From positions 124,001 through 188,000 of the forward strand of contig CALXSJ010000006.1 in NCBI GenBank assembly GCA_944391115.1: a stretch of 64,000 bases of DNA, written 5' to 3'. Shown piece after piece: positions 1,614-23,292 of the stretch. The translations under genes and the position numbers were made by a program. The DNA is from an uncultured Victivallales bacterium. GTDB lineage: Bacteria; Verrucomicrobiota; Lentisphaeria; Victivallales; UBA1829. The first letter of the stretch is position 1; every line of letters starts with the position of its first letter. The notes beneath the pieces were generated by a model, which saw only the letters and a list, made by a program, of their open reading frames with translations, ran no database searches and had not been told where the DNA came from.

Positions 1614-1897
1614 ACACTCCCGCGTTCTTCTAACGGAATTTTAACACTTTCCGGGATTCCGGGAAGGGAAGGGGGGCGGAGGAGATTTTTCCGGAAAAAT
1701 TTTCCCCTTCCGGTCCGGGGATGTCAAGTTGGAAAAAATCGAAAAAAATAATTTTTTTTCCTTAATTTTTCTTGTATTTGGGCTCGTGCGAGTACATAGT
1801 AGCGCCGGATTTGTGTATCAAGTGCATTCCCGCGGGGTGCGCGGAAAAAGTGTGTAATATTTTAAGTTGTTGTATATTAGAGGTTTAGGAGATGCGA
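1614..1897. other. Intergenic region between divergent genes
   Basis: No coding potential was recognised here. The region holds a G-rich/purine-rich stretch (about 1660-1690), a long A/T tract (about 1735-1772) and a possible plus-strand promoter for the export cluster: TCTTGT (1770-1775), 17 bases, TACATA (1793-1798). That promoter would give a leader of about 90 bases. A second TATATT at 1873-1878 lacks a convincing -35 box. The AGGAG at 1887-1891 is the ribosome binding site of the next gene. Confidence 0.35.
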
Positions 1898-6500: not shown

Positions 6501-9500
6501 CGGGCGGCGGACTTTACATCGCTTCCGGCGCAAAAGTCATTCTCGACAGCGTTACGGTGGAAAACAATGTCGTGGAGAACTGTTCGAACGGAATCAATCC
6601 AAAGTATTGGCAGTATTATTACAATGATCCGGATCTTGCAATCGGGGATACCGGAAAGACCACGGATCAGGGCGGTCGCGGAGGCGGCATTTACAGCGAA
6701 GGAACCCTGACAGTTCTTCATTCTCAATTTAATAAGAATGTTGTGAAATTCGCCAACAGCAGCCAGCTTCCGGACTATTACGCATTTCTTGACACCCTTT
6801 CCATGGGCGGCGCCATTTATTCCTCCGGAACTCTGACGGTTTATGATTCCTATATTCATAACAATACCGCGAAAAACGGCCTCGGCGGCGGCATTTATCT
6901 CGGCGGCGGAAGCGCCACCATTGCATCCACTGAATATTATACCGGCGAATCGCTCTGGCAGCAGACCGGCTCTTTGAATTCCATGATTATTACCGGAAAT
7001 ACCGCCAACGGCAGCAGCGACGGGACGCAATATGCGGCCGGCGGATTCGGCGGCGGCATTTATTCGGATTCCAGCGTGAACCTGACTCTGGACAGCGTCA
7101 CGCTTTCCGGCAACATTGCGACTCTTACAGTCGCTTCGTCTTCCGGGACGTCTTATGACATCGGGCGCGGCGGCGGACTTTATTTTGGAGAAGCGGACGC
7201 CTACCGGACTTATTCCGCCGTGACATCCGCTCCGCTTCTTGGAAATGGCGTCCTGACGATTGACGGCACCGTCCGCGATCTGACCAACGGGAGTGCGAAT
7301 GTCGCGGAACTGGAAATGAACCGGCGGACGAGTTTGATTTTTGACAACCACGCGGTTTCCGGAAGCGGTCTTTACATCAACAGCGCTTCCACCGTCAGCA
7401 TTGGCAATACGGAAATTTACAACAATGCCACTACTGCATCCCCTTATTTCACAAATACCAATGACGCACAGAATTTCTTCCAGAATTTTGTCGTGTCCTC
7501 CAATCAGAAGGATTCTTCTGTGGATATCAAGGTGGAGGCGCAGGACATTTCCGCCGCCGGTAAATTGTTCACCAGCAGCGGCATTGGACTGTATCTCGGC
7601 GGTTCCGGGGCGACCGCGTCTCTGGACGGCGTCTCCATTTACGGGCACGACGTCAACAATGCCTTCGGCGGCGGCATTTACGTCACGGGGGATATGTACG
7701 GTTCCGGTCTGGTTCATTTGAATCTGGTCAATACCACGCTTTACGACAATACCGCGGCCTATGGCGGAGGTGTGTATATCGGCGAAAACGCGTCGGTCAA
7801 CATTCTGAACACCACCGTTGCCGGAAACACTGCCGCAACGGCCGGCGGCGTGTATATCATCGGCAGCAATTCCGCGGTCAATATCCTGAACTCCATTCTT
7901 GTCGGCAATACAGGCGGCGACCTGGCGGCGGAATCCGACGCCCCTGCGATGAATGACATGTATTCGCTGTTCGGATCGGTTCTCGTGAAAAATTCCCTGA
8001 CGCTTCAATATGAACAGCAGAGCGTGGATCCGACCAGCTGCATTAATGTCGAGGCGAAAAATATTTTCGCAGATCCCACTCTTGCCAATAACTGGCAGAT
8101 TCAGGGAGCCCAGTACAGCAAGGCGTTCACGCCCGCGGGCAAGGTTTATTACTATGATTACGCCTACGGAACTACGCATACTCTGGCGATTTCCGCAGAA
8201 GGCGCTGCCGCCTACAAGGGTGTTTACACGGCGATTGATCTCGCAACGTCGGTCATGTACTTCAACACGCTGAATTCCCAGGCGGTTGCGGCGGGACAGA
8301 CGAGCGGAACCTGGATGAATTTCTCCTCCCGCACGGCTGCAACGGTTTCTTCAGACAAGATTGTGTCCTCCTCTCAGAACGGCCTGAACCGCCAGACCGG
8401 CGCAAACGGATCGGTCAGTTACAACACCTACAATATCGGCGCCTACCAGCTCACGGTAACCGATGTGTTCTACTATGATACTCCCGCGCAGAATCAGCTT
8501 GATCCTTTCGGAGAAACCCGTTATGAAGCATATGTTGGTTTTCAGCCTTCTGACGGAATGACCGCCTCATTCAATAATACGGAATATACTTATAATGCAA
8601 CGACCAGGACATGGAACAATACGAATAATTCCTACACTCCTGTGACCGGAGACACGCTGACTGTGGATGGCGTGGATTATAAGTATGACGGAACGGCTTG
8701 GGTCGCGACTCCTGTAACCGGAGACACGCTGACTGTGGATGGCATGGATTATACGTATGACGAGAAGGCCTGGGTCGCGACTCATACTCCTGCATCTGGA
8801 GATACGTTGACCGTAAGTGGGAAAACGTATCAGTATAATGCGGAGACAGATGAATGGACCAATCAGGATGACCCGTTTGAGACTTACACACCGAAGACCG
8901 GAGACACACTGAGTGTGGATGGCGTGGATTACACGTATAACGGGACAAACTGGACCGTAAGTTACGCTCCTGCTGCCGGGACTACTGTTTCTGTGAATGG
9001 CATGGATTACACGTATGACGGGACAAAGTGGACAACGACTCACACCCCCGCTTCCGGAGATACATTCGGCCATGATGGAACCGATTACATTTATGACGGA
9101 ACGAACTGGGTTGCGACTTACGCCCCCGCCGCCGAAGATACATTCAGTCACGACGATGGAACCGATTACATTTATGACGGAACGAACTGGGTTGCGACTC
9201 ACGCTCCCGCCGCCGGAGATACATTCAGTCGCGATGGAACCGATTACATTTATAACGGAACGAACTGGGTTGCGACTTACGCCCCCGCCGCCGGAGATAC
9301 ACTCAGTCACGATGGGACCTTCTACATTTATGATGGAACGGCCTGGGTCGCGACTCATACTCCTGCATCTGGAGATACGTTGACTGTGGATGGCATGGAT
9401 TATACGTATGACGGGAAGGCCTGGGTCGTGACTTACACTCCTGTCAATAATGATACGCTGACTGTGAATGGAGTGACTTACACGTATGACGGTAATGCAT

Positions 9501-12500
9501 GGAAGGATTCTGCCGACAACGAATATACCCTCCAAATTAGAGATCAAATTGCTGGGACAGATTATGTTTACAATGGCAAGAACTGGGTGGAAACTTATGC
9601 GCATGAAAATGGTGACAGGATCAACGTCGACGGAAAGCTTTATACCTATAGCTCCTTCTACGGCAGCTGGCGCAGCTCTGCCGGTGATGAGTATACCCCT
9701 GAAGCCGGTGATAGAATCGTAGGCACAGCATATGTGTATGATGCCGGTATTTCGGCATGGGTGAACACCCATCTTCCCGCAGATGGCAATATGATTTATT
9801 CCTCGGGAAGCATATTTACTTACAATGCAATGACAGGGACATGGAATAATGTCGCCGCGACTCATACTCCTGTATCTGGAGATACGTTGACTGTGGATCG
9901 TGTGGATTACACGTATGACGGGACGCACTGGATTGATGCCGATAATACTCCAGTTCCTGGTTCGGGAGATATTATTACCACCGCTGACGGAACGACATAC
10001 AAACTTGGCATTGCTGACAAGTTGGTAGAAAATCTTCCCTATCGGTATTATACTGCTTCCGGAGAATATTACGTCCGTCCGATCATCAATACTACGGATG
10101 ATACGATCAACCCCTATGACGGCTCTTTGTCCCTCCGCGAGGCCATTCTGCTTGCGGGAGAGAATCTGACAATCAATTACACGCTGGATCCCGCCATCTA
10201 CGGCGAGAATCCCGATGCGCCGGTCATCAGTGAAAAGTTCCATTTCGGAACAGAGATTGTTTTGAGCGAGAAAATTGCTGCTGGAGGAAGTCTTGAATTC
10301 ATAATCGGAGAATCCAATGTTTACGGAACTGCGGCGGATGGCACTTCTCTCACTTCCTCCTTCTATGATTCGATCGGAATCAACAAGGGTTTGACCGACA
10401 GTTTCGGCAATGACATTTCCTACCGGATCATTGCGGGAACGGTGGATCCCACTTCCTATAATGTGACGCTTCCGGCCTCCTCGCTCCTGCCCTTCGAATA
10501 TGACGCAACAGATGATGCCACCTTCCAAAGCCTGAATCTGACTTTGAAGGTCAGAGACAGAGATCCGGTCAACAATGATCCCGGACGTTTCCGCGTATTC
10601 GACGTGATCAGCGGAGACATTACGCTTTACGGCGAAGGAGCCGGCTCCCTGACCATCCTGGGCGGCAATGTTTCCAATGACAACAATCCGGACCGTCCCG
10701 CATCCGAACGCACGGATGAGAGCATCAGCAATTTCGGCGGAGCGATCCGTCTCTCCGGCGCAGATGCCACGCTGACTTTGAACGGCGTCACAATTAACCG
10801 GGGAATCGCCAACCGGGGCGGCGCAATCTACGTCGCGGACGGAACTCTGAACCTGATCGGCACGACGACAATCAACGGCACGGTGGCGCATGGATTCGCC
10901 TCCGCCGGCGATAATGTCAGCCAGGTGACCTACGGCGACGGTTATGTATATACATCCGGATACGGCGCCGGGATTTACATGGCCGGCGGCAGTCTGGTGA
11001 TCGGCATGGACGCACTGTCCGCGGAAAAGGCGGGCGAGGCGTTTTACGCGTCCAATGTGACGATTTCCGGCGGCACGGCCGCACAATACGGCGGCGGCAT
11101 TTATCTTGCGGGCGACTCTTCCCTGCTCGGAAATCATTCCCTTTATGCTTATGACGCGGAAAACCGCTTATATGCTCCAGTTTCCGAATCGTTTGCCATT
11201 TCCGGCAATTCCGCCGTCAGCGGCGCGGGACTTTACATCGCCACGACAGGGAGCGTTTCCCTGGAGCGGGCAACGATTTCCGGCAACACTCTGCGGCAGG
11301 GGGTTTCCTCCAACTTCAAGGTTCCGACTTCAGGCATTCCCGCATCCTACGGAGGCGGTCTTTATGTCGCAGCCGGCAGTTCCGTCAGTCTGAAGGGCGT
11401 GACTGTCACGGGGAATGTGACGGCAACTTATGTCCGTCCGGGCTCCGGCAGCAATCCTGACGTTCCGAACTATGTCGTTTCCTATGGCGGCGGTATTTAT
11501 GCCGAAGGAACTGTGACAATTTCGGAGTCGAATCTGTTTCTCTCCGGAGGAGATGCTCCGGCGCAGGACATTGCCAACAGTTCGATTTCCTCCAATACGG
11601 CGTTGCGCGGCGGCGGCGTTTATCTTGCCGACGGCGGAACATTCACCATGAGCGGCGCTGATCCCGGAAAAGGGGGCGATGTGGCTTCTGTTTCCGGAAA
11701 TAAAGCAACTGCAGGAAGTTACACTAATGAAACTTCCAATACAACCGGACAGGGCGGCGGCCTGTATGTCTCAGCCGGCGCGACTGCGAATTTGTCCAAT
11801 GTTGTGCTTTCCGGCAATATTGCGAATTCTGTGTCCTCCGGTGCGGCAGCGGATAACAACCTGAGCGGGCGCGGCGGCGCGGTCTACACCGCCGGTGTCT
11901 TTTCTCTGACGAATACAACGCCCTCCTCCGAGACGCTGCGCATTTCCATGAATGACAACAGCGCGGCTTACGGCGGAGCCGTTTATCAGGCGGGAGGAAC
12001 GGTTTCACTCTCCTATCTTTCCATGTATGGAAACAAGGCCAGCGGCGACACGAGCAGTTCCACTTCCACAGGAGGCGCTCTGTATCTGGCGAATGGAACT
12101 GCGAATATCCTGAATGCGACGATCTCCAAGAATATCGGGGATGCCGCCATTTATACCGCTGCCGGCACTCTTACCTTGACCAATACGACGCTTGCACTGA
12201 ATACTGGTTCAAACTGGGGTCTGGTGAATTCCGCGGCGACCGTATTCCTGAGAAACACTCTGGTGATCGGCAACGGCAATTCCGGTTACAGCAATATCAA
12301 TGATGATAGTGAATATACCAATGACGGATATTCTCTTGTCGGAACGGAGGAAAACGGATATTCGGCGGAGCTGATTTTCGGGACGAATGGCTTTGATTCC
12401 GAGACCGGTGTTATTCAGCTTGATCAGACTGCCGAGAATCCCGCACTTGCCGGAGGATATCTGTATCGCGATTCGGTTGGAAACGCTTACGATCAGCTTG

Positions 12501-15500
12501 GCAAGGACCGGACCGAGACGCCCGGCGACGGCGTTTACACCATCGGCGCCGTGATTGCCGGATCCGTTTCGCCGACCAGCGTGCTGGTGAATACGTTTAC
12601 CGATGACACGACTTCCGACAATGAGCTCTATTCTCTCCGCGAAGCAATTCAAGATGCAGCCGGTGGCGATATCACCATCGCATTTGATCTTGAGGCATTG
12701 CGGAACGAGAAGGCGGACGGAGCTGAAGCCTCATTTATTCTGAATAGTCTTCTCTCCTGGACGGCCGGAACTGTGACGATCGACGGCGGCGGTCTGCTGG
12801 CTTCGCTTGGGACAGTTTCCATTACCGCCGGAACCGGCAATACCGCCGGATTGTTTGCCCTTACGGAAACGTCGGGCCTTGTTCTTTCCAACTTCACTGT
12901 TTCCGGAACCGGAGCGTCCTTCGGCAATGCCGGCGCGGCTCTCAGTCTTGCCGGTTCCTCAACGGCGACCTTGACCAATGTGACCGTTCAGAATGTGGTG
13001 ACATCCGGCAACGGCGCGGCTCTCAGTCTTGCCGATTCCTCAACGGCGACCTTGACCAATGTGACCGTTCAGAAAGTGGTGACATCCGGCAACGGTGCGG
13101 TTTCTGTTGCGAACGGTTCGTCACTGACTCTTGCGGGGAATACAGTCTTTGCCTCCAATCAGGCCAAGAACGGCGGCGCTCTCTACAACGCCGGTTCTCT
13201 GACAGTCTCCGGAACGCTCGAATTTACGGAGAATCGGGCGACTGAAAACGGCGGCGCGATCTACAATGCCGCGGGTACACTGACGGTTACCGATGCTGTG
13301 TTCAGCGGCAACACGGCAGCCGGAAACGGCGGTGCGATCTACAATGCCGCGGGTACACTGACGGTTACCGGAGATTTCACCTCCAATCAGGCTGAGAACG
13401 GCGGTGCGATCTACAATGCCGCGGGCACATTGACAGTTTCCGATTCCGCAGTTCTTCAGGGCAACATTGCAACCGGTTCCGGCGGCGCGATCTATAATGC
13501 CGCTGATGGAACTTTGATTGCCATGTCCGCGCAATTCAGTGGAAATCATGCGGATTCAGGTTCCGGCGGTGCGATTTACAATGCCGGTTCTCTGACGGTT
13601 TCCGGAACCGAATTCCTGGCGAATGAATCCAAGGATGGCGGCGCGATTTACAATGAAGGAGTGCTGCAGTTTACCGAAGGGACCAATACGGTCTTTGCCG
13701 GCAATACAGCAACCGGAAACGGCGGCGCTCTCTACAACGCCTCCAGTGATCTTCAGCTTGCCTATGCCTCATTCACTGACAACCAAGCTGAGAATGGCGG
13801 CGCATTCTATAATGCCGGACAGAATGTTTCGGTTACAGGCGTCGTATTCGGCGGCATGTCGGAAGACGGGACAGAAGAAGGAAATACCGCTGCAAACGGC
13901 GGCGCGATTTACAACGCCGCAGGTGCGGTTCTGACATTGGATGCCGCCTCGGCTTTCTCGTATAACGAAGCGACTGCGGACGGCGGCGCTCTTTACAATG
14001 AAGGCGCGTTGACCATGTCCGGCGGCAGTATCACCGGAAATACCGCTGCAAACGGCGGCGCAATCTACCATAAGGGGACCATTCTGACGGTTACCGATGC
14101 TGTGTTCAGCGGCAATGCCGCGACTGCAAACGGCGGCGCACTTTACAATGAAGGCAAAATGACTATGTCCGGTGGCAGTTTCACTGGAAATACCGCTGCA
14201 AACGGCGGCGCGATCTACAATGCCTCGACGGAATCCGTGCAGTTTACAGGGACCTTGTTGACCGACAACATTGCAACCGGAAACGGCGGCGCATTCTATA
14301 ATGCCGGACAGAATGTTTCGGTTACAGGCGTCGTATTCGGCGGCATGTCGGAAGACGGGACAGAAGAAGGAAATACCGCTGCAAACGGTGGCGCGATTTA
14401 CAACGCCGCAGGTGCGGTGCTGACACTGGATGCCAGCTCGGCTTTCTCGTATAATAAAGCGACAGGTTCCGGCGGTGCGATCAGCAACAGCGGCACCCTG
14501 AGTGTCAGTGCGTCCTTCAGCGACAACCGGGCTGAACAGAATGGCGGTGCGATCAGCAACAGTGGCACGCTGAATGTCAGGAATGCGTCCTTCAGCGACA
14601 ACCGGGCTGAGCAGAATGGTGGTGCGATTTATACGGATACTTCGGTCACCGTGAATAACTCCGTGTTCGAGAACAACCTGACGTCCGGCGACGGCGGCGC
14701 AATTTCCGGTTCCAACGTGACCGTGAATGGCGGTACCTTTACAGGGAACCACGCGGATAACGGCAGCGGCGGTGCGATCAGCGGCAGCAGTCTGAGTGTC
14801 AGCAACGCGGCCTTCGCCGACAATACTGCAACACACGGCGGCGCAATTTCCGGTTCCGACGTGACCGTAAATGGCGGTACCTTTACAGGGAACCACGCGG
14901 ATAACGGCAGCGGCGGTGCGATCAGCGGCAGCAGTCTGAGTGTCAGCAACGCGGCCTTCACCGGCAATACTGCAACACACGGCGGCGCAATTTCCGGTTC
15001 CGACGTGACCGTGAAGGGCGGCACCTTCGACCGGAATACGGCTTTCGGAAACGGCGGCGCAATTCTGGCGACCGGCTCGCTCTCCGTCAATTCGAACTTC
15101 ACGGACAATGAAGCCAGCTCCAACGGCGGCGCGATCGCGGCTTTCGGAGCTGAGGCGACCATCTCCGGCACTTTCACCGGCAACGCCGCCTATAATGAAA
15201 ACGGCGGCGCGGTGTATCTCGATCAGGGCGGAACTCTTGCAAATATCACTTTGACGGGCAATACCGCGCAGGACGGCGCGGCGGTTTACAGTGCGGGTGG
15301 TGCATTGACGATGAATTCCGCCACCGTGACAGACAGCAATGCAAAGGACGGTTCGGTTGTAACCAGTCGAGGCGACAAGACGGTTATCCGGAACAGCAGT
15401 CTGAACAACAATACTGCGAGTGTCAATATTGTCAATGCGCCGGAGGCGGGTGAACTCTTCCTGATTTCGACGACGGTTGCGGAAAACAGCGTCACTGAGG

Positions 15501-16594
15501 CGGATGTTTCCGGCGTGGATGTCTCGATCGTGAACTCCACAATCGCCGAAGCCAGGAAGAATGATGTGCTGGTTCAGGCGAGCGGCGACGTCCAGATCGC
15601 AAACAGCATTGTCGTCGGCGCAGAAGCCGGAACCACAGTCATCAATGCCGTCGGCGATATCGACGGAGCCTATTCAATTCTTGGACAGGTCGCTTCTTCT
15701 GGCGGCACATTCAATAATGAATACGGAACTGTAAGGCTGAATCAGGCTTATTCCGCTGTTTTCGGAAATAATACTGTGAACGGCAACGGCCTGATCTCCC
15801 TTCCGTCCGGATCTCCGGCAATGGCGGGTGTCTGGACCGCGGTGGATACCGATTCGACTTCCGATGCTTATGGCAGCGTGTATTACACGACCCGTCCGGA
15901 TGGCATGTGGACGCAGGACTATAACCCGAACCGTATGAACTGGAATCTGCTCGGCGTCGGGTCCATTGGCGGACGCGGGAACGTTTCTCCCGGCGCGACG
16001 GTTTCCGCCGGAAACGCCGGAGGAATCTATCCGTGCATCGGTGCCAGCTGGAATCTTGCATGGACTCCGGATCCCGGGCACGGTCTGAACAGCGATTTCA
16101 TCAAGCCTTCTGAAAACGGTGTCGCGCACAGCATTTATGATATTTACAATGCCGTTTCGGACAGGCTGTATGCGAATCCGGGTTATCTGCTGAACTTCCG
16201 CAATGAAGTGTCCGGCGCCTCCCGTCTGGGCTATGACTTCATGCACGAGTTTGACGACCGCTATCGGACCATGGGCGAGTTCTCCGTGACGATCGGACGT
16301 TTCGACCTCGGATTCGTTCCGAGCGGCGAAAATCATATCACAGTCAATGTGAAAGGCGATGTCTCCGACGACTTTACGAGATATACGACGACGCCGTATC
16401 TCTCGGACGGCACCCCGCTGATTCCGGAGGAACTCAAGCCGATGAATTCCGAGACCGAGACCCCGGCTGCCGAGGGGACGGCCGCACTGCCGGAGGGGCT
16501 GGAGGAGAAAGTCATGGCCTATCTGGGGCGTGCTGAAATCTTCAAGGATGATTTCGACAAGGCTCTGGACCGCCTGCTGGCCCTGAACGTCTGA
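3593..16594 (+). CDS. Giant LEPR/DUF4347/parallel-beta-helix surface protein (4,333 aa)
   Basis: Predicted secreted or surface-displayed adhesin-like protein. The start has AGGAAGG upstream. In order: a basic N-terminus with a LEPR-XLL-like motif (FRLEDRVLFEAAG, residues 13-25) and no classical signal peptide; an Asp/Ser-rich linker; two DUF4347-like units (about 149-245, degenerate, and 306-450, with THG and YGCN motifs); beta-helix module 1 (about 480-1550); about 17 copies of a 24-34 residue GDTLTVDG-x-DYTYDG repeat (1655-2138); module 2 beginning at a SLREAI motif (about 2180); module 3 beginning at another SLREAI (about 3015); and a unique C-terminal domain (about 4050-4333). Module 3 has 27 GGAI/GGAL/GGAF/GGAV units with interspersed FxxN, the motif pair known from chlamydial Pmp proteins. 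No C-terminal autotransporter barrel or T9SS tail was recognised. Adhesion is inferred; no ligand can be read from the sequence. Confidence 0.85.
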   Translation: MRKQRRQRKIEIFRLEDRVLFEAAGAAEAVEAVENASNPNPDQQNDISESERQEKEAQSVAKYAGPDGAAIQEPGAPVQDQGAGLTRPDAIQQDPAQKLVEGSGDFSDVPDVTQEHTSELSDFLNADFSVTSDSTLSFSDSLSSDSDTHELIVIDSDAAKDLDLDALSDKTEVLVLDNDSDAMEQINAYLDSHDGKYDSIRFVTDGDSDADSAPDHLELNGREVSASDLDAVRDHLADGGDLSVQTALDDAAPVYTLTPDGDFELAHADDLHDAVIHPEIDETITVDAAANVPVSALSNPVEEGREELVIINSNIADKDVVLSQLGGRDVLEIDPSQDALSQIQDYLDANPDTRYDAIHILTHGNDQGFYLGSTQVTDAGQMTVFTGHMAENADFMLYGCNLAATERGQALIHDIADVTGCDVAASTDMTGAAAVGGDWVLEYNVGVVETASISLNADWNYRLATITVNSEAAESTTNATSLRSALNGWPNPDNPDQSRAAARAGDIINIQSQTDGATIGIAITIIANAETGDITISTTGVVLNGTGYTNVTINVNGGIENSNLTVTETFTSSGSISGSTVNVNADQALIEITGGSVSGSSLNASGAGRIDVSGGGFTDTTVINSGTDDINIGSNSKFTDSSVTHSGTGNINISGGTFTESPVAHSGAGSTTITGGEFTGSEKTGTGISISGSGALKISGGTFSGFEKAVEFSSSGTATITGGGFTKNVYGLVNNGTMSVSGSNVSFTSNHNGTDESAATAGAGILNNASGELSVSDVTIGAMGGGNYYGLENHGSITALKDSTIQYNMMSGLRNEGEGSIDSINNVTLNENGFILDEEGNSYTALGGGLYNSGTIKKFIDIQITNNHAAQGGGIYNTGEISADVNDRSFNIYISGNEATQGGGIYWGGGFLDTSALVYQYGDPDSRGLTGNTAHQGGGVYIASGDVLFQDFRLFENTADHVNLEASTYAGGGLYIASGAKVILDSVTVENNVVENCSNGINPKYWQYYYNDPDLAIGDTGKTTDQGGRGGGIYSEGTLTVLHSQFNKNVVKFANSSQLPDYYAFLDTLSMGGAIYSSGTLTVYDSYIHNNTAKNGLGGGIYLGGGSATIASTEYYTGESLWQQTGSLNSMIITGNTANGSSDGTQYAAGGFGGGIYSDSSVNLTLDSVTLSGNIATLTVASSSGTSYDIGRGGGLYFGEADAYRTYSAVTSAPLLGNGVLTIDGTVRDLTNGSANVAELEMNRRTSLIFDNHAVSGSGLYINSASTVSIGNTEIYNNATTASPYFTNTNDAQNFFQNFVVSSNQKDSSVDIKVEAQDISAAGKLFTSSGIGLYLGGSGATASLDGVSIYGHDVNNAFGGGIYVTGDMYGSGLVHLNLVNTTLYDNTAAYGGGVYIGENASVNILNTTVAGNTAATAGGVYIIGSNSAVNILNSILVGNTGGDLAAESDAPAMNDMYSLFGSVLVKNSLTLQYEQQSVDPTSCINVEAKNIFADPTLANNWQIQGAQYSKAFTPAGKVYYYDYAYGTTHTLAISAEGAAAYKGVYTAIDLATSVMYFNTLNSQAVAAGQTSGTWMNFSSRTAATVSSDKIVSSSQNGLNRQTGANGSVSYNTYNIGAYQLTVTDVFYYDTPAQNQLDPFGETRYEAYVGFQPSDGMTASFNNTEYTYNATTRTWNNTNNSYTPVTGDTLTVDGVDYKYDGTAWVATPVTGDTLTVDGMDYTYDEKAWVATHTPASGDTLTVSGKTYQYNAETDEWTNQDDPFETYTPKTGDTLSVDGVDYTYNGTNWTVSYAPAAGTTVSVNGMDYTYDGTKWTTTHTPASGDTFGHDGTDYIYDGTNWVATYAPAAEDTFSHDDGTDYIYDGTNWVATHAPAAGDTFSRDGTDYIYNGTNWVATYAPAAGDTLSHDGTFYIYDGTAWVATHTPASGDTLTVDGMDYTYDGKAWVVTYTPVNNDTLTVNGVTYTYDGNAWKDSADNEYTLQIRDQIAGTDYVYNGKNWVETYAHENGDRINVDGKLYTYSSFYGSWRSSAGDEYTPEAGDRIVGTAYVYDAGISAWVNTHLPADGNMIYSSGSIFTYNAMTGTWNNVAATHTPVSGDTLTVDRVDYTYDGTHWIDADNTPVPGSGDIITTADGTTYKLGIADKLVENLPYRYYTASGEYYVRPIINTTDDTINPYDGSLSLREAILLAGENLTINYTLDPAIYGENPDAPVISEKFHFGTEIVLSEKIAAGGSLEFIIGESNVYGTAADGTSLTSSFYDSIGINKGLTDSFGNDISYRIIAGTVDPTSYNVTLPASSLLPFEYDATDDATFQSLNLTLKVRDRDPVNNDPGRFRVFDVISGDITLYGEGAGSLTILGGNVSNDNNPDRPASERTDESISNFGGAIRLSGADATLTLNGVTINRGIANRGGAIYVADGTLNLIGTTTINGTVAHGFASAGDNVSQVTYGDGYVYTSGYGAGIYMAGGSLVIGMDALSAEKAGEAFYASNVTISGGTAAQYGGGIYLAGDSSLLGNHSLYAYDAENRLYAPVSESFAISGNSAVSGAGLYIATTGSVSLERATISGNTLRQGVSSNFKVPTSGIPASYGGGLYVAAGSSVSLKGVTVTGNVTATYVRPGSGSNPDVPNYVVSYGGGIYAEGTVTISESNLFLSGGDAPAQDIANSSISSNTALRGGGVYLADGGTFTMSGADPGKGGDVASVSGNKATAGSYTNETSNTTGQGGGLYVSAGATANLSNVVLSGNIANSVSSGAAADNNLSGRGGAVYTAGVFSLTNTTPSSETLRISMNDNSAAYGGAVYQAGGTVSLSYLSMYGNKASGDTSSSTSTGGALYLANGTANILNATISKNIGDAAIYTAAGTLTLTNTTLALNTGSNWGLVNSAATVFLRNTLVIGNGNSGYSNINDDSEYTNDGYSLVGTEENGYSAELIFGTNGFDSETGVIQLDQTAENPALAGGYLYRDSVGNAYDQLGKDRTETPGDGVYTIGAVIAGSVSPTSVLVNTFTDDTTSDNELYSLREAIQDAAGGDITIAFDLEALRNEKADGAEASFILNSLLSWTAGTVTIDGGGLLASLGTVSITAGTGNTAGLFALTETSGLVLSNFTVSGTGASFGNAGAALSLAGSSTATLTNVTVQNVVTSGNGAALSLADSSTATLTNVTVQKVVTSGNGAVSVANGSSLTLAGNTVFASNQAKNGGALYNAGSLTVSGTLEFTENRATENGGAIYNAAGTLTVTDAVFSGNTAAGNGGAIYNAAGTLTVTGDFTSNQAENGGAIYNAAGTLTVSDSAVLQGNIATGSGGAIYNAADGTLIAMSAQFSGNHADSGSGGAIYNAGSLTVSGTEFLANESKDGGAIYNEGVLQFTEGTNTVFAGNTATGNGGALYNASSDLQLAYASFTDNQAENGGAFYNAGQNVSVTGVVFGGMSEDGTEEGNTAANGGAIYNAAGAVLTLDAASAFSYNEATADGGALYNEGALTMSGGSITGNTAANGGAIYHKGTILTVTDAVFSGNAATANGGALYNEGKMTMSGGSFTGNTAANGGAIYNASTESVQFTGTLLTDNIATGNGGAFYNAGQNVSVTGVVFGGMSEDGTEEGNTAANGGAIYNAAGAVLTLDASSAFSYNKATGSGGAISNSGTLSVSASFSDNRAEQNGGAISNSGTLNVRNASFSDNRAEQNGGAIYTDTSVTVNNSVFENNLTSGDGGAISGSNVTVNGGTFTGNHADNGSGGAISGSSLSVSNAAFADNTATHGGAISGSDVTVNGGTFTGNHADNGSGGAISGSSLSVSNAAFTGNTATHGGAISGSDVTVKGGTFDRNTAFGNGGAILATGSLSVNSNFTDNEASSNGGAIAAFGAEATISGTFTGNAAYNENGGAVYLDQGGTLANITLTGNTAQDGAAVYSAGGALTMNSATVTDSNAKDGSVVTSRGDKTVIRNSSLNNNTASVNIVNAPEAGELFLISTTVAENSVTEADVSGVDVSIVNSTIAEARKNDVLVQASGDVQIANSIVVGAEAGTTVINAVGDIDGAYSILGQVASSGGTFNNEYGTVRLNQAYSAVFGNNTVNGNGLISLPSGSPAMAGVWTAVDTDSTSDAYGSVYYTTRPDGMWTQDYNPNRMNWNLLGVGSIGGRGNVSPGATVSAGNAGGIYPCIGASWNLAWTPDPGHGLNSDFIKPSENGVAHSIYDIYNAVSDRLYANPGYLLNFRNEVSGASRLGYDFMHEFDDRYRTMGEFSVTIGRFDLGFVPSGENHITVNVKGDVSDDFTRYTTTPYLSDGTPLIPEELKPMNSETETPAAEGTAALPEGLEEKVMAYLGRAEIFKDDFDKALDRLLALNV
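8555..10005 (+). repeat. In-frame degenerate tandem repeat region of the giant protein
   Basis: About 17 consecutive units of 24-34 codons read roughly as G-D-T-L-x-V-D-G-x-D-Y-x-Y-D-G-x-x-W-V-A-T-x-x-P-A. Units around 9079, 9160 and 9237 are nearly identical at the DNA level, including the stretch encoding GTDYIYDGTNWVAT, which suggests recent expansion by unequal recombination. Units from about 9480 to 9830 are diverged. The unit is unlike the beta-helix repeats on either side and may form a stalk or spacer. Confidence 0.85.
12931..13092 (+). repeat. 81-bp tandem duplication inside the giant gene
   Basis: Two adjacent 81-base copies (12931-13011 and 13012-13092) encode 27 residues around LTNVTVQ(N/K)VVTSGNGA and differ at only a few bases. 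The period is a multiple of three, so the reading frame is kept. Confidence 0.8.
13796..14460 (+). repeat. Dispersed near-identical duplication of about 170 bp
   Basis: The segment 13796-13965 recurs at about 14285-14454, an offset of 489 bases (163 codons), with very few differences. It encodes FYNAGQNVSVTGVVFGGMSE and the following GGAIYNAAG unit. Such near-identity within a diverged repeat array points to a recent duplication or gene conversion. Confidence 0.8.
14701..15010 (+). repeat. 144-bp tandem repeats inside the giant gene
   Basis: Copies start at 14701, 14845 and 14989 (the third is partial), an exact 144-base period (48 codons). Each encodes paired GGAISGS units with a VTVNGGTFTGNHADNGS segment. 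Divergence between copies is very low. Confidence 0.85.
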
Positions 16595-16641
16595 CAAGGA
16601 AGATGAAAACGATGAAAGCATACGGAACAAAGGAGGAGAAA

Positions 16642-18807
16642 ATGCGGCACGGTTCGCATCGGATTGCGCTTGGAGTTGCGGCTGTTCTGGTTTTTGCCGG
16701 AGGCTGTAAAACCGCGGATGATTACCGCAGGGAGCGGGTGAAAAACGCGGTGGAGCAGTTCAATCAGGCAAAGAAAACAGAACTTGCCAAAGAAAAGGGC
16801 GTGCTGACGCTTCAGGACTGCATGGGGCTTGCCGTCAAGCATAATCTGGACCTGAAGGTTCAGAATCTGGAAAAGGATGCCGCCAGAAACATCATGATGG
16901 CGGAACTCCTCGGCATGCTTCCGGATCTGACGATTTCCGACAGTTTCACAGGCCGCTCCAATCAGCCCGGCTCCAGCAGCAAGGCTGTGGCGAGCGACGG
17001 CGACACCTACGGCTACAGCACGAGCACGGACCGCAACGTCAACAACCTGAGCGTGGATCTCGCTTTCAGCCTTCTGGATTTCGGACTCGCGTTTTTCAAT
17101 TCGCAGCAGAGCCACGACCGCATGCTGGTCAAGGAAAAGCAGATCGAACGCGCCGCGCAGAATCTTTCGCTTGAAGTGGTGCGCGTCTATTTCAAGGTCG
17201 CCGCCGCCCAGCGCGCGATCAAGGTGACGACCAAGCTGCTGGAAGACTGCAAGAGCCGTTACGAGCTGATTAAAAAACTGGCTGCGGAAAACAAGATCAC
17301 GCCGTTCCGCGCAACGGATGAAACGACCCGTTTCCTCGCGATGGAAAAACGCCTGACCAATTATACGCGCGGTTATGAAAGCGCATGCGTCGAGCTGCGC
17401 TCCCTGCTCGGCGTGTATCCGTCCTCCCGGATCGTGGTGGACGAGAGTCCGCTGGACACGGTTCCGGAATTCGATTTCCCCGATATCGAACTCCTGGAGC
17501 AGATGGCGATCCTGAAGCGTCCGGAGCTGTATGAGATCGACATTCAGAAGCACATCAACATTCTGGAATGCCGCAAAACCCTCCTGATGATGCTGCCGAA
17601 CGTGAGAATGTATGTGGACTTCATCAACAACAACAATTCCTTCCTTTATCATCAGAGCTGGTGGGAACTTGCCGTGAAGGCCGCCTACAACGCATTGAAG
17701 ACCCCGCAGTACATCTCCCGCTACATGGCTTACAGCGATCAGGCGGATCTGGAGGAAATGCGCAGCTTCGCCCAGGCGATCGCGGTCATGTCGCAGGTCC
17801 GGATCGCGAAGGCGGACATTGTTTCCAGTCGCGAACGCTTCGAGATCAATCGCAAGGAACATGAGGAATACAGCAAATACCTCAAGGCCGCGCTGGCCAC
17901 CAAGAGTGTTGACGGTTCGGTCACACAGCTGGATATCGATCATCAGCGTCTGCGGACGGCGGAAACCGAGATCGAGCGTCTGATGTCTCTCGGCGCATAC
18001 TACATTGCGCATTACCGTCTGCTGAACGCGATCGGCGTGAAGAATCTTGACGCAAAAACCCAGAGCGAACTCAAGGCGGAACTTGCGGCGGCGCGGGAAA
18101 GCGCCGCGGAAGAGCTGGAAAAGGCACGTGCCGAGTATGCCTCCAGGCAGTCCGCCGCTGAAGATGCCCGCATTGCGCGGATCCTATTCGATGACGGTTT
18201 GAAGCTTTACCGCGAAAACAATGCGCAGGATGCCGCCGTCTATTTTGAGCGTTCCGCCGCCAAGGGCAACGCTTCCGCAATGTTCTGCCTCGGCAAGATG
18301 TACTGGTCCGGGAAAGGCGTGGAAAAGAATCAGCGGAAAGCCGCGGAGCTTTTTGTGCAGGCAGCCGACAAAGGCAATCTGGAAGCGATGGTTCTGACCG
18401 CCTGGCTGTATTACAAGGGCAATGTCCTGCCGGAGAATCATGATCTGGCGTTCAAGTATTACCGGATGGCCGCGGACAACGGCGATGAAAAGAGTCTCTA
18501 CTGGCTCGGCGCTCTGGCCTATGAGCGCGGCGATTATGAAGAAGCCATGGATTATTTCAAGAAGTCCGCGCGCGGCGGGGAAGTCGCCTCCATGGTCTGG
18601 GTCGGCAGTCTCTACCGCAATGGAAAAGGCTGTGAGAAGGACTATGCGAAGGCGATGCTCTGGTACAAGCGCGCCGCGGACAAGGGCAATCCCGAGGCGA
18701 TGAACAACATCTCGATGATGTATGCCGCCGGTGACGGCGTCCCGCGAAACCAGCAGGAAGCCGACAAGTGGTTCAAGATGGCGGAGGCCGCGTTCGCAAA
18801 ACGCTGA
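16642..18807 (+). CDS. TolC-like outer-membrane lipoprotein fused to C-terminal Sel1 repeats
   Basis: Second TolC-like channel protein of the cluster, 721 residues. In-frame ATGs lie upstream at 16603 and 16612, but AGGAGG at 16631-16636 fits the ATG at 16642, which also gives a clean lipoprotein signal (lipobox FAGGC). The OEP part (about residues 40-480) parallels the gene at 1898, sharing LGMLPDLTIS-, SSK- and SWWEL-type segments. After a charged coiled coil (about 480-510) come five or six Sel1-like repeats (about 515-715) with A-x-x-G-(N/D)-x-x-A-M and LG-x-(M/L)-Y signatures. Sel1 repeats usually mediate protein contacts; fusion to a TolC-like channel is unusual. It begins 47 bases after the giant gene and ends at a terminator, so it looks like the last gene of a three-gene operon. 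Confidence 0.88.
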   Translation: MRHGSHRIALGVAAVLVFAGGCKTADDYRRERVKNAVEQFNQAKKTELAKEKGVLTLQDCMGLAVKHNLDLKVQNLEKDAARNIMMAELLGMLPDLTISDSFTGRSNQPGSSSKAVASDGDTYGYSTSTDRNVNNLSVDLAFSLLDFGLAFFNSQQSHDRMLVKEKQIERAAQNLSLEVVRVYFKVAAAQRAIKVTTKLLEDCKSRYELIKKLAAENKITPFRATDETTRFLAMEKRLTNYTRGYESACVELRSLLGVYPSSRIVVDESPLDTVPEFDFPDIELLEQMAILKRPELYEIDIQKHINILECRKTLLMMLPNVRMYVDFINNNNSFLYHQSWWELAVKAAYNALKTPQYISRYMAYSDQADLEEMRSFAQAIAVMSQVRIAKADIVSSRERFEINRKEHEEYSKYLKAALATKSVDGSVTQLDIDHQRLRTAETEIERLMSLGAYYIAHYRLLNAIGVKNLDAKTQSELKAELAAARESAAEELEKARAEYASRQSAAEDARIARILFDDGLKLYRENNAQDAAVYFERSAAKGNASAMFCLGKMYWSGKGVEKNQRKAAELFVQAADKGNLEAMVLTAWLYYKGNVLPENHDLAFKYYRMAADNGDEKSLYWLGALAYERGDYEEAMDYFKKSARGGEVASMVWVGSLYRNGKGCEKDYAKAMLWYKRAADKGNPEAMNNISMMYAAGDGVPRNQQEADKWFKMAEAAFAKR

Positions 18808-18872: not shown

Positions 18873-18900
18873 TTGCTTTTTCCGCTTCATGCAGTATAGT
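18873..18900 (+). promoter_or_regulatory. Candidate sigma-70 promoter of the adaptor operon
   Basis: TTGCTT (18873-18878), 16 bases, TATAGT (18895-18900), just after the terminator and about 30 bases before the start of the first adaptor gene. The same -35/-10 pair and spacing recur at 40678-40705. Confidence 0.55.
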
Positions 18901-18930
18901 CATACGGACAAATGTAAGGAAAAAACACGC

Positions 18931-19722
18931 ATGAAGAAGTTATCGTCCATCCTGCTGCTGTTGTCGGTTTTCCGCGTTGCGCTTTCCGGTGCGGAAATGA
19001 GTTATGACTCCCTCCCGGTCAAAGTGGTGCTGTTCCCGTATCGCGAGGCTGTTCTTTCCACGCAGATCGACGGGGTTGTTGAAAAATATAATTTCCGGCC
19101 GGGCGCGCCTTTCAGGAAGGATGCTGTTCTCCTGAAACTGAACGATACGAAATACAACAATGACCTGCTCCGGATGCGTTCGCTGATGAAAGAGGCGGAA
19201 TTGAATGCCGCCTACGCAAAACAGAAATGGGAGGATAACAAACGCCTTTTCAAAGAGGATCTCCAGAGCGAGATCGAAGTCGTCAAATCCGAGCTGGGTG
19301 CAAGCGTTTCCGCCGAACGGGTCCAGTCCGCCCGGATCAATTATGCCGACGCCATGCTTCAGCTGGCGTTCTGCACGATCAAGGCGCCCTTTGACGGAAG
19401 AGTGGAAAAGCATCTGACGCGCGAATTTGAAACGGTCCGCAGCGGCCAGCCCCTGATTTCCATTATTGATGACAATCAGCTCCTCGGCGTCATGAATGTG
19501 CCGACGACCTGGCTTCCGAAGATCAGAATCGGGATTCCCGTTACATTTAAAGTGAATGAAACCGGCAGTGTCGTGACCGGAAGTGTATATGAAATTGCGG
19601 GGCGTGCCGACCATCGAAGCGAAACCGTCGAAATCAAGGTGCTGCTGGACAATGCCGGTCACCGCTTTTCCGCCGGAATGTCCGGCACATTGCTGAAAGT
19701 GGGTGACGGCAATGGGAAATAA
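18931..19722 (+). CDS. HlyD/RND-type periplasmic adaptor (membrane fusion protein)
   Basis: Periplasmic adaptor linking an inner-membrane partner to a TolC-like channel, 263 residues. The ATG at 18931 follows AAGGA and gives a signal peptide (MKKLSSILLLLSVFRVALSGA). The lipoyl/barrel-sandwich halves are visible as DGVVEKYNFRPGAPFRKDAVLLKLN (split) and CTIKAPFDGRVEKHLT, separated by a helical hairpin (about 75-135). A beta-barrel segment with a VYEIAGRADHRSETVEIKV-type strand follows. It overlaps the next gene by 11 bases, which suggests translational coupling. It is short for the family. It is first gene of the adaptor operon that follows the surface-protein operon, so it is likely to serve the TolC-like proteins encoded upstream (inference). 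Confidence 0.85.
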   Translation: MKKLSSILLLLSVFRVALSGAEMSYDSLPVKVVLFPYREAVLSTQIDGVVEKYNFRPGAPFRKDAVLLKLNDTKYNNDLLRMRSLMKEAELNAAYAKQKWEDNKRLFKEDLQSEIEVVKSELGASVSAERVQSARINYADAMLQLAFCTIKAPFDGRVEKHLTREFETVRSGQPLISIIDDNQLLGVMNVPTTWLPKIRIGIPVTFKVNETGSVVTGSVYEIAGRADHRSETVEIKVLLDNAGHRFSAGMSGTLLKVGDGNGK

Positions 19723-21109
19723 TCCGCAGCAGGAAAATGCGGAGCTCAAAGCGCGCCTGCATGCCTTCGCCGCTATCATGCGTCTCGGACGCGATGCGTT
19801 CGAGCAGCCGGATCTGCCTGCCGCGGCCGTGCATATCGTGAACAATTCCCGCACGCTGCTCGCCTATGAATCCTCGTCTCTCGCGGACCTGCGCGGCAAC
19901 CCCTCCCTTCTGGCGGAATACGCGCAGGTGGAAGTGAAGCAGCATACCGAATATGCGGCGGATGTGAAAATCCTCTGCCGCAGTGTCGATCTGAGCGGCG
20001 GGGCAGTGGAACTCAATGAGGGGAACGAAGCGTTCAGAAAACTGCCGGAGAAGGCGCGCGGGGCATTCAGCCGTCTGGCCGGCGAAGGCGGCTCCCTGCT
20101 GCTGGTTCCGCTGCGTTCGGCGCGCTTCCGGAGTTCCGCGAAAGATCCTTTTGTCTGGCTGATGACGTTCAAAGGGGCGGTTCCTCCTCACGTCGGCGCG
20201 ACGATTCCGCTGCTGGCCTCGGACTACGGCAATGCGCTGTGGAGCCACACTCCGCGGGGCGGAGCGCGTCTTCTGCTCAAGTGGCTGAGGAAGATCACGC
20301 TGATCCGTATTCTGCTGCTTCTGCTGGCGGCGTTTGTGGTTGCCATGTTCACGGTGGATGTGGAGCATACCGTTTCCGCGGAGTTCGTAGTCCGGCCGGA
20401 TGCCGAATACAACTCCTACGCGTGGTTTGACTGCGTTGTGAAGAACTGTTTCTTCAATGACGGAGACGCCGTCAAGGCCGGCGACCGGATTCTGGAATAT
20501 GATACGGACCGGATGCGCTTCCAGCTCGCCGCCTCCGAAGCGGCTTTCAAGGAGGCGAACGCCGAATATGAACAGGTGCTGAAGGCCTCTTTCACCGACC
20601 GTGAAAATCTCGGGAGACTGAAAGTTCTCGCATTCAAGCGCGACTCCGCAAAAATTGCGATCGAGGAGGCGAAGTGGTATCTGGCGCACAGCGTGGTGAC
20701 TGCTCCCGTTTCCGGAATTCTCGCCATTGCCGAGGGAAGCGCGGACAAACTTGCCGGCCGCGCTCTCCGGCTCGGAGAAAAACAGTTTGACATTCTTTCC
20801 GACAAAGGGATGATCGCCGAGATCATGGTGAACGAAAAAGACGCTTCCGTCCTGGAAGGCAATCCGCGGATCACGCTCTTCCTGCATACCCGTCCGGAAC
20901 TGCCGATTCCCGTAAAGATTCTTTCCTCGCGCTTTTATCCGGAACTGACCGAGCAGAATATTTACAGTTACAATGTGAAGGCGGAAATGGAAAACAACGT
21001 CCCCGGACTCCGCTTCGGCATGCGCGGGGTGGCCAGGGTGACCGGCGAAAAGGTCAAGCTCGGCTACTATCTCTTCCGGAGCCTGGTTCTCTGGTACCGC
21101 GGCGTGTAA
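19712..21109 (+). CDS. Membrane-anchored adaptor with N-terminal GAF-like domain and C-terminal HlyD-like domain
   Basis: The ATG at 19712 lies inside the end of the preceding gene; a GTG three codons upstream (19703) is an alternative. About 465 residues. The first ~190 residues form a GAF-like cytoplasmic region (helix, then a strand pattern with LLAYESSSLADLRG and SLLLVPLRS). One transmembrane segment (about 197-216, LIRILLLLLAAFVVAMF) follows, then a periplasmic HlyD-like part: DGDAVKAGDRILEYD for the first lipoyl half, a coiled-coil hairpin (about 270-320) and VVTAPVSGILAIAEG for the second half. The GAF assignment rests on fold-like pattern and position, not on a decisive motif. The layout suggests a cytoplasmic sensory or docking domain controlling an export adaptor (inference). 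Confidence 0.78.
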   Translation: MGNNPQQENAELKARLHAFAAIMRLGRDAFEQPDLPAAAVHIVNNSRTLLAYESSSLADLRGNPSLLAEYAQVEVKQHTEYAADVKILCRSVDLSGGAVELNEGNEAFRKLPEKARGAFSRLAGEGGSLLLVPLRSARFRSSAKDPFVWLMTFKGAVPPHVGATIPLLASDYGNALWSHTPRGGARLLLKWLRKITLIRILLLLLAAFVVAMFTVDVEHTVSAEFVVRPDAEYNSYAWFDCVVKNCFFNDGDAVKAGDRILEYDTDRMRFQLAASEAAFKEANAEYEQVLKASFTDRENLGRLKVLAFKRDSAKIAIEEAKWYLAHSVVTAPVSGILAIAEGSADKLAGRALRLGEKQFDILSDKGMIAEIMVNEKDASVLEGNPRITLFLHTRPELPIPVKILSSRFYPELTEQNIYSYNVKAEMENNVPGLRFGMRGVARVTGEKVKLGYYLFRSLVLWYRGV

Positions 21110-21117
21110 CGACGGAC

Positions 21118-23292
21118 ATGGATATGAATATGGATATGGAACGCAATCCGGCATCGCAAACCGGAGAACAGAAGATGACGCCGGAAAATTCCCAGGAAAC
21201 GCCGTCTCGGAAAACCCCGGAGATCCGGACGGGTGTGATCCGCTCGGACATTCAGTTTATTCCGCCCGGGGAACACGGGGATTACGCGATGATTTTCGAT
21301 CCCCTTTCCGAGGCGTATTACAAGCTTTCCGAGCGTTCCTGCCGGATTCTCCAGCTGATGGACCGCAGTTATCCCCTTGACGAGTTTCTGGAACGGGTCA
21401 ATTCCTTCGGCATGGATACGGACATGACGGAGCTGCAGGAGCTGCTTCATTTTCTTCATGCGAACAATCTGATTGCGCCCGAATACGGAATGCAGGACGC
21501 CAAGGTCCGGCGTCACCGCGAGATGAAGGAGAAAAACACCTTTTACCGGATCATGGGCATGTATCTCTTTTTCCGCCTCCCGCCGATTCATCCGGACGGC
21601 TTTTTCACGGCGACCATGCCGCTTGTCCGCTTTGTGTTCAACAAAATCACGCTCTTCTTCATCATTGCCGCCGCCGCGGGCGGTTATCTCCTGCTGCTGC
21701 GCTCCTGGAACGAAGCGTATGCGACGTTCGTCAACTCCCTTTCCTGGGCGGGACTCGTGAAATATTTCTGGGCCCTTCTTGTCACGAAGTCGGTGCACGA
21801 GCTGGCGCACGGTTATACGGCAAAGAGTTTCGGCGCTCGCGTCCGCGCCATGGGACTGAGCTTCATCGTGTTCTATCCCCGTCTTTTTGTGGATCTGACC
21901 GACACCTGGCGGCTTTCCCGCGCAAAACGGACCGCCTGCGACGGCGCCGGCATTGCAAGCGAACTGATTTTCGGCGGGCTTGCGGCGATCATCTGGGTGT
22001 ATGCCTCTCCCGGCCCCTTGAAATCCACGATGTTTTATCTCTTCACCGTCAGCGCGCTGGGAACGATTCTGGTCAACGGGAATCCCTTCATCCGCTACGA
22101 CGGATACTATCTGCTGTGCGATTTCCTGAACATCGAGAACCTGATGCAGCGTTCCAGCGAGTTCATCAAGGCATGGAACCGCCGGTTTTTTCTCGGGATC
22201 GGCTCATATCCGGACAGCGGCGACTGCTCGCCGCTGACGCTGTATTTCTTCGGCATCAGCGCCTTCATCTACCGGCTTTTCCTCTATACGTCGATCATTC
22301 TCATCATCTACTTTAAATTCACAAAACCCGTTGCAATCATCCTGATGGCGATTGAAGTCTACACGATGCTGCTGATGCCGCTGATTTTCGAGCTGAAAGC
22401 GCTGAACGCGCTGCGGCGGAGAATGAACTGGGCAAAAGCGTTGCTGACGCTCATCCTCGCATGCGGGCTTGTCTCGCTTCTTTTCATCCCGCTTCCCTGG
22501 TCGTTCAGTCTGCCGTGCGAGATCGTGCCGGAGTCCCGCCGCATCGTGACGGTCAATGAATCGGCGTTTGCCGCAAAAGAGCTCAAAAACGAGCCTTTTG
22601 CCGTGCGGGAAGGAGATTTGATCCTGCCGTTCCGCAATGTTTTTCTTGATTTCAACATCCGGCGTTATGAGATTGCCGCCGAACAGAACCGCGCGGAGCT
22701 GAATCTTCTGCGTTCGGACACCGGGACGATCGGCGCGAGTCCCGCCGTGTATGAGAAGCTGCGCGCAAATCTTCTGACGCAGAACGAGATGAAACGCCGC
22801 CGCGGCAACATGGCCGTGAAGGCGGATGCATCCGGAATTTTTGTCCCCGCGATCAAAGACGTTTCCGAAGGACGGTGGCTGGAGAAGGGGACGATCCTCG
22901 GAGAAATTGTATCGCAGAAAGTTGCGGTTTACGCATATGCGCTTGACCGGGAAGTCAACAGAATTCAGGAAGGCGACCGCGTGACGGTCCGTCTGCGCGG
23001 TGAATTGAAGGAATATCCCGGCCGGATCGGCGCGCTCAATCCTGTCGCCGTCAAGTTCCGTGATTCCACGCTGGTGCAGGCGCTTGGCGGCATTGTGCCC
23101 TGCTATCCCAACCAGAAAACCCGTGAATTCACTCCGGTGAACGTTCTCTACTGCATCACCGTGATTCCCGACGAACCGATCCTCTGCCGTTCGGGGCGCA
23201 CCGGACAGGCCGAGGTGAAGAAGAGCTATCGCATGTCTGTGGAGCTGCTTCGTTCCCTGATGCACGTCTTTTACCGTGAATTTTCCTTCTGA
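21118..23292 (+). CDS. PqqD-like / M50-family (site-2-protease-like) membrane protein with C-terminal HlyD-like domain
   Basis: Multidomain inner-membrane protein of 724 residues, eight bases after the previous gene. The N-terminus (about 40-140) resembles a PqqD-like winged helix (FDPLSEAYYKLSERSCRILQLMDR). The membrane core carries the zinc motif HELAH (227-231) and the paired NPFIRYDG motif (322-329) expected of M50/site-2-protease-like proteins, amid several transmembrane segments. The last third (about 470-700) has a lipoyl/HlyD-like layout: EGDLILPFRN, a helical hairpin rich in Arg/Glu, then VKADASGIFVPAIKD. Four closely spaced ATGs (21118-21136) leave the exact start uncertain. Proteins of this layout are annotated as M50 or HlyD in other bacteria, without a defined mechanism that I know of. 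Here it takes the position where a type I system would encode its ABC transporter. Confidence 0.83.
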   Translation: MDMNMDMERNPASQTGEQKMTPENSQETPSRKTPEIRTGVIRSDIQFIPPGEHGDYAMIFDPLSEAYYKLSERSCRILQLMDRSYPLDEFLERVNSFGMDTDMTELQELLHFLHANNLIAPEYGMQDAKVRRHREMKEKNTFYRIMGMYLFFRLPPIHPDGFFTATMPLVRFVFNKITLFFIIAAAAGGYLLLLRSWNEAYATFVNSLSWAGLVKYFWALLVTKSVHELAHGYTAKSFGARVRAMGLSFIVFYPRLFVDLTDTWRLSRAKRTACDGAGIASELIFGGLAAIIWVYASPGPLKSTMFYLFTVSALGTILVNGNPFIRYDGYYLLCDFLNIENLMQRSSEFIKAWNRRFFLGIGSYPDSGDCSPLTLYFFGISAFIYRLFLYTSIILIIYFKFTKPVAIILMAIEVYTMLLMPLIFELKALNALRRRMNWAKALLTLILACGLVSLLFIPLPWSFSLPCEIVPESRRIVTVNESAFAAKELKNEPFAVREGDLILPFRNVFLDFNIRRYEIAAEQNRAELNLLRSDTGTIGASPAVYEKLRANLLTQNEMKRRRGNMAVKADASGIFVPAIKDVSEGRWLEKGTILGEIVSQKVAVYAYALDREVNRIQEGDRVTVRLRGELKEYPGRIGALNPVAVKFRDSTLVQALGGIVPCYPNQKTREFTPVNVLYCITVIPDEPILCRSGRTGQAEVKKSYRMSVELLRSLMHVFYREFSF

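Follow-up and report, generated by a model that had tools for sequence, protein, structure and literature searches.

A PqqD-M50-HlyD fusion protein as probable receptor and processing protease in a proposed TolC-linked export module for giant surface proteins

We analyzed a 64,000-nucleotide stretch of DNA from an uncultured Victivallales bacterium (contig CALXSJ010000006.1, positions 124,001 to 188,000; the whole stretch is called the window here). The open reading frame (ORF) at 21118..23292 (+) of this window, unbroken and starting with ATG, encodes a 724-aa protein in which a PqqD-like domain, an M50-type membrane core and a HlyD-type adaptor domain are fused. We consider it probable that this protein acts in the inner membrane as receptor and maturation protease for a TolC-linked export module whose cargos are giant surface proteins headed by an LExR motif. 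It is an apparently new combination, within an export module, of known parts: a RiPP (ribosomally synthesized and post-translationally modified peptide) recognition element (RRE) joined to a site-2 protease (S2P), and a membrane fusion protein (MFP) domain. The PqqD/RRE domain would recognize the cargo N-terminus LExRxL[FL] in the cytoplasm, and the S2P-type core, with its active site near the cytoplasmic face, would engage the leader and then clip it. The periplasmic HlyD-type domain would form, together with a small HlyD protein and a GAF-like/HlyD protein, the adaptor to an outer-membrane factor (OMF), and the module would work without an ATP-binding cassette (ABC), resistance-nodulation-division (RND) or major facilitator superfamily (MFS) pump of its own.

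Domain architecture and conservation

The PqqD/RRE-like domain, predicted to be cytoplasmic, occupies residues about 36-118 (21223..21471, +). A Pfam scan with the single sequence gave no PqqD match; an alignment of the N-terminal region was matched to PqqD proteins by hhalign (Prob 91.8, E=7.5e-7), two other segments of the protein used as controls gave Prob 0.8 and 0.3, and the full-length PqqD model TIGR03859 matched one relative at 1e-5. In the AlphaFold2 model (mean pLDDT 89.2), built from a 69-sequence alignment that left out the relatives from the plasmid collection, the N-terminal domain consists of strands 46-48, 57-61 and 66-70 followed by helices 72-79, 87-96 and 103-115, with pLDDT about 90-94. 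This beta-beta-beta-alpha-alpha-alpha order is the PqqD/RRE topology.

The helical M50/S2P membrane core follows at residues about 125-454 (21490..22479, +), with seven predicted transmembrane (TM) helices at 176-195, 210-237, 268-295, 300-320, 372-400, 403-431 and 438-454. The zinc-binding motif HELAH (residues 227-231; 21796..21810, +) lies within the predicted helix 210-237, and the motif NPFIRYDG (residues 322-329; 22081..22104, +) holds the third zinc ligand, D328. Peptidase_M50 (Pfam) matched residues 218-359 at E=2.8e-4, its 20.7 bits not reaching the curated cut-off of 27.2; 68 of 69 relatives matched this family at E<=0.01, and a relative reached 34.7 bits. The remainder of the chain, residues about 458-724 (22489..23289, +), is a HlyD/MFP-type adaptor domain predicted to be periplasmic, which begins at residue 459 in the AlphaFold2 model. 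HlyD_3 (Pfam) matched residues 579-644 with 29.5 bits (cut-off 22.2), and a Foldseek comparison of the model with known structures returned MacA at 1.3e-11. Since the best 50 Foldseek matches listed for the full models were MFP structures, with no PqqD or S2P structures among them, the PqqD and S2P assignments are based on profile comparisons, sequence motifs and the predicted topology. A sequence search of the PDB gave no match at E<=1, and a search of viral contigs revealed no relatives.

The presumed inner loops carry the positively charged residues, which are absent from the short outer loops; therefore, the PqqD domain is predicted to be cytoplasmic, with HExxH and D328 close to the inner face and the HlyD domain outside. 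A sequence-only reading of the same DNA had proposed that one chain combines PqqD-like with HlyD-like domains, arranged for cargo binding inside and linkage outside. The hhalign result, the modeled topology and the HlyD_3 match above cut-off bear out the first point, and the seven TM helices with positive-inside loops agree with the second. The positions it gave for HELAH and NPFIRYDG proved exact, and the PqqD fold that it expected within residues 40-140 was found there, at 46-115 of the model.

For the analysis of conservation, we aligned 73 full-length relatives that were 23-93% identical to the window protein. They come from Lentisphaeria and Proteobacteria, with single records from Planctomycetota, Verrucomicrobiota, Thermodesulfobacteriota and Chlamydiota, and all of them, from Lentisphaeria to Proteobacteria, keep the three-domain layout. 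H227, E228, H231 and D328 were unchanged in 73/73 of these relatives and in 34/34 sequences of another alignment, and HExxH was also retained in 13 plasmid relatives and in 15 further relatives examined from the window's phylum. The metalloprotease site, which the sequence-only reading had called intact, thus has invariant zinc ligands and an invariant catalytic glutamate, and the loss of ligands across homologues for which that reading had asked us to look did not occur. Proteolytic activity of the M50 core is predicted from these residues and the model. Alternatively, the core might have no proteolytic role and act as a structural receptor or membrane conduit whose zinc site is kept for stability. 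A conduit would help to explain the missing pump, and no cleavage site is known; however, the invariance extends beyond the metal ligands to the catalytic E228, and the HExxH motif persists even in the 15 distant relatives, so that we regard this explanation as quite unlikely.

The operon in the window

The fusion gene closes an operon of six co-directional genes, set at short distances in the order OMF, cargo, OMF-Sel1, small HlyD, GAF-like/HlyD and PqqD-M50-HlyD. The cargo (3593..16594, +) is a 4333-aa protein with a DUF4347 domain and repeats of the chlamydial polymorphic membrane protein type, as judged from Pfam and NCBIfam matches; the main DUF4347 copy is at 4514..4951 (+; PF14252, 142.6 bits). 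The cargo gene is flanked by two different TolC-family genes of the same operon. The upstream one (1892..3568, +) encodes a second OMF of 558 aa (PF02321, 1.5e-29), and the downstream one (16603..18807, +) encodes a 734-aa OMF of the TolC/OEP family (PF02321, 1.9e-18) with C-terminal Sel1 repeats (6.2e-32), an unusual addition to a TolC-family protein. The small periplasmic adaptor (18889..19722, +; 277 aa) is of the RND type (TIGR01730 RND_mfp, 131 bits, cut-off 94.9). The middle adaptor (19703..21109, +; 468 aa) combines a GAF-like domain, one TM helix and a HlyD-type adaptor region (AlphaFold2 pLDDT 93; Foldseek MacA, 2e-15). Its own HlyD match was below cut-off, and HlyD_3 was matched by 53 and GAF by 5 of 56 relatives. 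The GAF-like domain is cytoplasmic and precedes the single TM helix, and sister-branch versions give a clear GAF match. Because of these GAF matches, export may be gated at the middle adaptor by a small molecule or by a signal from a partner.

Before the operon, the ORF at 70-1584 matches no Pfam family and resembles an antisense frame. The long reverse-strand ORFs opposite the repetitive cargo gene, e.g. 8567-11137 (-), are probably by-products of composition and not genes.

The module in other genomes

To see how far this gene order extends, we surveyed the neighborhood of the M50 gene in 80 genome-contig loci, of which 73 had room for one upstream gene and 63 for two. Directly before the M50 gene, 65/73 loci had a HlyD gene coding for 380 aa or more, with a median of 4 bases from stop to start, and a second, small HlyD gene stood beside the large one in 56/63. 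In the relatives, an OMF gene and a gene for a giant cargo usually adjoin the HlyD-HlyD-M50 block, which contains no ABC ATPase. Annotated plasmids of E. coli, Azospirillum and Variovorax show the order giant protein, TolC, adaptor, HlyD, M50, and in Variovorax the gene for the cargo extends over 48.7 kb (about 16,000 codons); in Magnetospirillum, the block is preceded by a smaller ORF. Among 289 genomes of the window's phylum, the M50 protein was present in 33 of the 39 with DUF4347, compared with 28 of the 250 without it. A profile-based count of 186/289 genomes was not used for this association, since most of the additional matches cover the HlyD domain alone.

Of 5426 complete E. coli genomes, 24 have blocks with an Ig-like giant protein and without SecA (represented by L031), mostly on plasmids and at 99-100% identity, a recent and mobile distribution.

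The N-terminus of the cargo

The window cargo carries LEDRVLF at residues 15-21 (3635..3655, +), which we propose as the leader signal. Cargos from Lentisphaeria and from alpha-, beta- and gammaproteobacteria bear the same motif class, LExRxL[FL], close to their N-terminus. When nine cargo starts were read singly, seven fitted LExRxL[FL] and one read MEPRVLL; the small Magnetospirillum ORF had no such motif. Among control ORFs the motif occurred in 2 of 1196, and one of these two was itself a cargo. A hydrophobic stretch of the Sec type is absent from all nine starts (over 15 residues, the mean hydropathy peaks at 0.4-1.75). In the window cargo, neither Pfam nor NCBIfam gave a match of the RTX type, a result to be read with the fact that the type I C-terminal signal has no sequence consensus.

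The motif recalls the LEPR-XLL proteins (NF012209), very large repetitive proteins with N-terminal L-E-x-R-x-L, and two sister-branch cargos bear this label in PGAP annotation. In contrast, the N-terminus of the window cargo did not match NF012209 (cut-off 17 bits), nor did anything else in its genome score above cut-off. Since LEDRVLF fails the model, its likeness to LEPR is a resemblance and not membership. The suggestion of the sequence-only reading that the cargo N-terminus is an attractive ligand of the PqqD-like domain gains from the conserved LExR motif; the literal LEPR that it named is not what the window cargo carries.

Relation to RiPP proteases

The best-scoring curated models for the fusion protein are RiPP proteases. 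NF041824, the daptide HExxH protease, spans residues 45-420 (E=2.5e-44; model positions 7-367 of 379), and NF058609, the YydH/LiaK epipeptide metalloprotease, matches the M50 core motif region at residues 177-345. The daptide enzyme MpaP is an RRE fused to an S2P and is described as removing the precursor leader, and daptide precursors share the motif ELExMEAP (PMC10036551). The window protein thus resembles MpaP in its RRE-S2P architecture and in the N-terminal L-E-x of the associated precursors, but it has an additional C-terminal HlyD-type domain, and its neighbor is the 4333-aa protein instead of short precursors. Membership in the daptide family was rejected, as the score of 152 bits is half of the 300-bit equivalog cut-off and the gene neighborhood is of another kind. 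The YydH/LiaK model lacks an adaptor domain, and the window protein scores far under its cut-off (42 vs 225 bits).

These matches would fit a block that matures and exports a RiPP-type peptide, with the giant protein merely a neighbor. However, the operon encodes no short precursors and no daptide modification genes, its contents being OMF, adaptor and giant-cargo genes; across phyla it is a giant protein gene that accompanies the block, not a short precursor or modifying enzymes. Moreover, the cargos share their N-terminal motif, and DUF4347 co-occurs with the M50 protein at the genome level. Together with the low daptide score, this makes the explanation highly improbable.

SecA-like ATPases and the energy source

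On a Rhodobacteraceae plasmid, a SecA-like gene lies beside the M50 gene, and used as a tblastn query it led to seven more alphaproteobacterial plasmid loci. In all eight, the M50-fusion gene is just upstream of the SecA-like gene and in most directly adjacent; one gene lies between them in Pseudosulfitobacter, and about 0.9 kb separates them in an unannotated Ensifer record. Coordinates of the ATPase gene are L032:14081-16039, L157:13797-15713, L158:13929-15890, L159:13773-15797 and L160:11980-13965. The M50 proteins of these loci form one clade (SH-aLRT 100). Similarly, a SecA-like ORF directly follows the PqqD-M50-HlyD gene in 12 of 15 loci from other families of the window's phylum (L174, L175, L177, L178, L180 and L182-L188), several of which have an LExRxL-headed ORF close by. 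Over the alphaproteobacterial and same-phylum loci together, LExR-headed cargos often lie near the SecA-like gene. The alphaproteobacterial loci also recurrently contain a small DUF3467 gene between the giant cargo gene and the HlyD gene (L157:9319-9639, L158:8536-8841, L160:7704-7985, L162:7440-7784).

The SecA-like proteins, of about 620-680 aa, share with SecA and SecA2 the DEAD motor, the preprotein cross-linking domain and the nucleotide motifs, Walker A and the DEAD-type motif being intact in most copies. They differ in being shorter and in standing beside an M50/HlyD export block. Because the best profile matches extend no further than about position 555-603 of 789, we conclude that they are without the SecA C-terminal region. 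In public annotation, their genes are labeled 'prepilin peptidase', 'DEAD/DEAH box helicase' or SecA. The position of these genes after the M50 gene suggests that they encode the motor of the export block, and in this sister branch export is probably powered by the SecA-like ATPase whose gene comes directly after that of the M50 protein. For the window's branch, the motor would have to come from outside the operon and is probably the housekeeping SecA or another unlinked ATPase, which is the weakest step of our proposal.

Several points weigh against the proposed receptor and protease role. Profile scans of the operon proteins detected no ATPase and no ABC transporter in the window operon, and the single SecA of the window's genome is encoded on a different contig. 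The binding of the leader, its cleavage, the export route and the source of energy are inferred. The co-occurrence of DUF4347 with the M50 protein (Fisher p about 1e-20) was not corrected for genome relatedness. The likeness between the L-E-x of the daptide leader and the cargo LExR is short and suggestive, and it could be due to convergence or chance. Finally, a HlyB-type ABC transporter and a type I HlyD directly precede TolC and an LEDR-headed cargo in two loci (L047 and L053), and an orthologue of this ABC transporter, 72% identical, is present but unlinked in the window's genome, on contig C4.

Because of these ABC genes, we keep type I secretion as a rival: the ABC transporter would export the cargo as an ordinary type I substrate, and the fusion protein and the two adaptors would only mature or anchor it. 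The window block indeed resembles type I systems (HlyB/HlyD/TolC, and the LapBCE type for giant adhesins) in its TolC-family channel, HlyD-family adaptors and giant repetitive surface protein. However, a protease/RRE protein takes the place of the ABC transporter in the inner membrane, the adaptors are by score RND-type or MacA-like and not of the type I HlyD kind, and the cargo signal is apparently N-terminal; a plain type I system was rejected for the operon, which encodes no ABC gene. An ABC-like ORF was nearby in only 6 of the 80 loci surveyed. Within the order, orthologues of this ABC gene are frequent both in genomes that have the M50 module and in genomes that do not, and in genus g9 they stand beside the module. 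The ABC was absent at E<=1e-120 from 10 of 32 M50-bearing genomes of the order, including both congeners, and 33 genomes of the order carry it without a strong M50 match. We conclude that the ABC transporter is not a fixed partner of the M50 module, and that it may serve in some lineages. The cluster on contig C4 (L206:9367-15285) comprises the HlyB-type ABC gene (850 aa), a 444-aa neighbor placed where HlyD would be and, about 2.5 kb from the ABC gene, a PqqD-family gene (119 aa); the ABC cluster thus has HlyD-type and PqqD-family genes of its own, which also speaks against its serving the M50 block. Taken together, we consider export of the window cargo by the ABC transporter unlikely.

Discussion

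Inner-membrane pumps of the ABC, RND or MFS kind are described as the power source of tripartite TolC systems (PMC8277102). Beyond the role of receptor and maturation protease assigned above to the fusion protein, it is possible, and we propose it only tentatively, that the module constitutes a distinct secretion system. In such a system, an RRE/S2P/adaptor fusion would replace the type I ABC pump, read and cleave an N-terminal LExR leader, and pass cargos that can reach about 16,000 residues on to TolC; in one branch, a dedicated SecA with a shortened C-terminus would provide the drive. The system would be widespread in Lentisphaeria, related Planctomycetes-Verrucomicrobia-Chlamydiae (PVC) lineages and Proteobacteria. 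In the open-access literature that could be searched, which leaves out bioRxiv and most subscription papers, we found no description of this export module.

If the proposal is correct, it would reveal a new way of moving the largest bacterial proteins across two membranes, with a leader-binding intramembrane protease in the place of the pump and, in one branch, a SecA-type ATPase next to it. It would give the LExR/LEPR-XLL N-terminus and the DUF4347 proteins a testable role, and the relatives in Azospirillum, Marinomonas, Halomonas and on E. coli plasmids offer tractable hosts. The RRE-plus-S2P logic of RiPP maturation would then extend to giant surface proteins.
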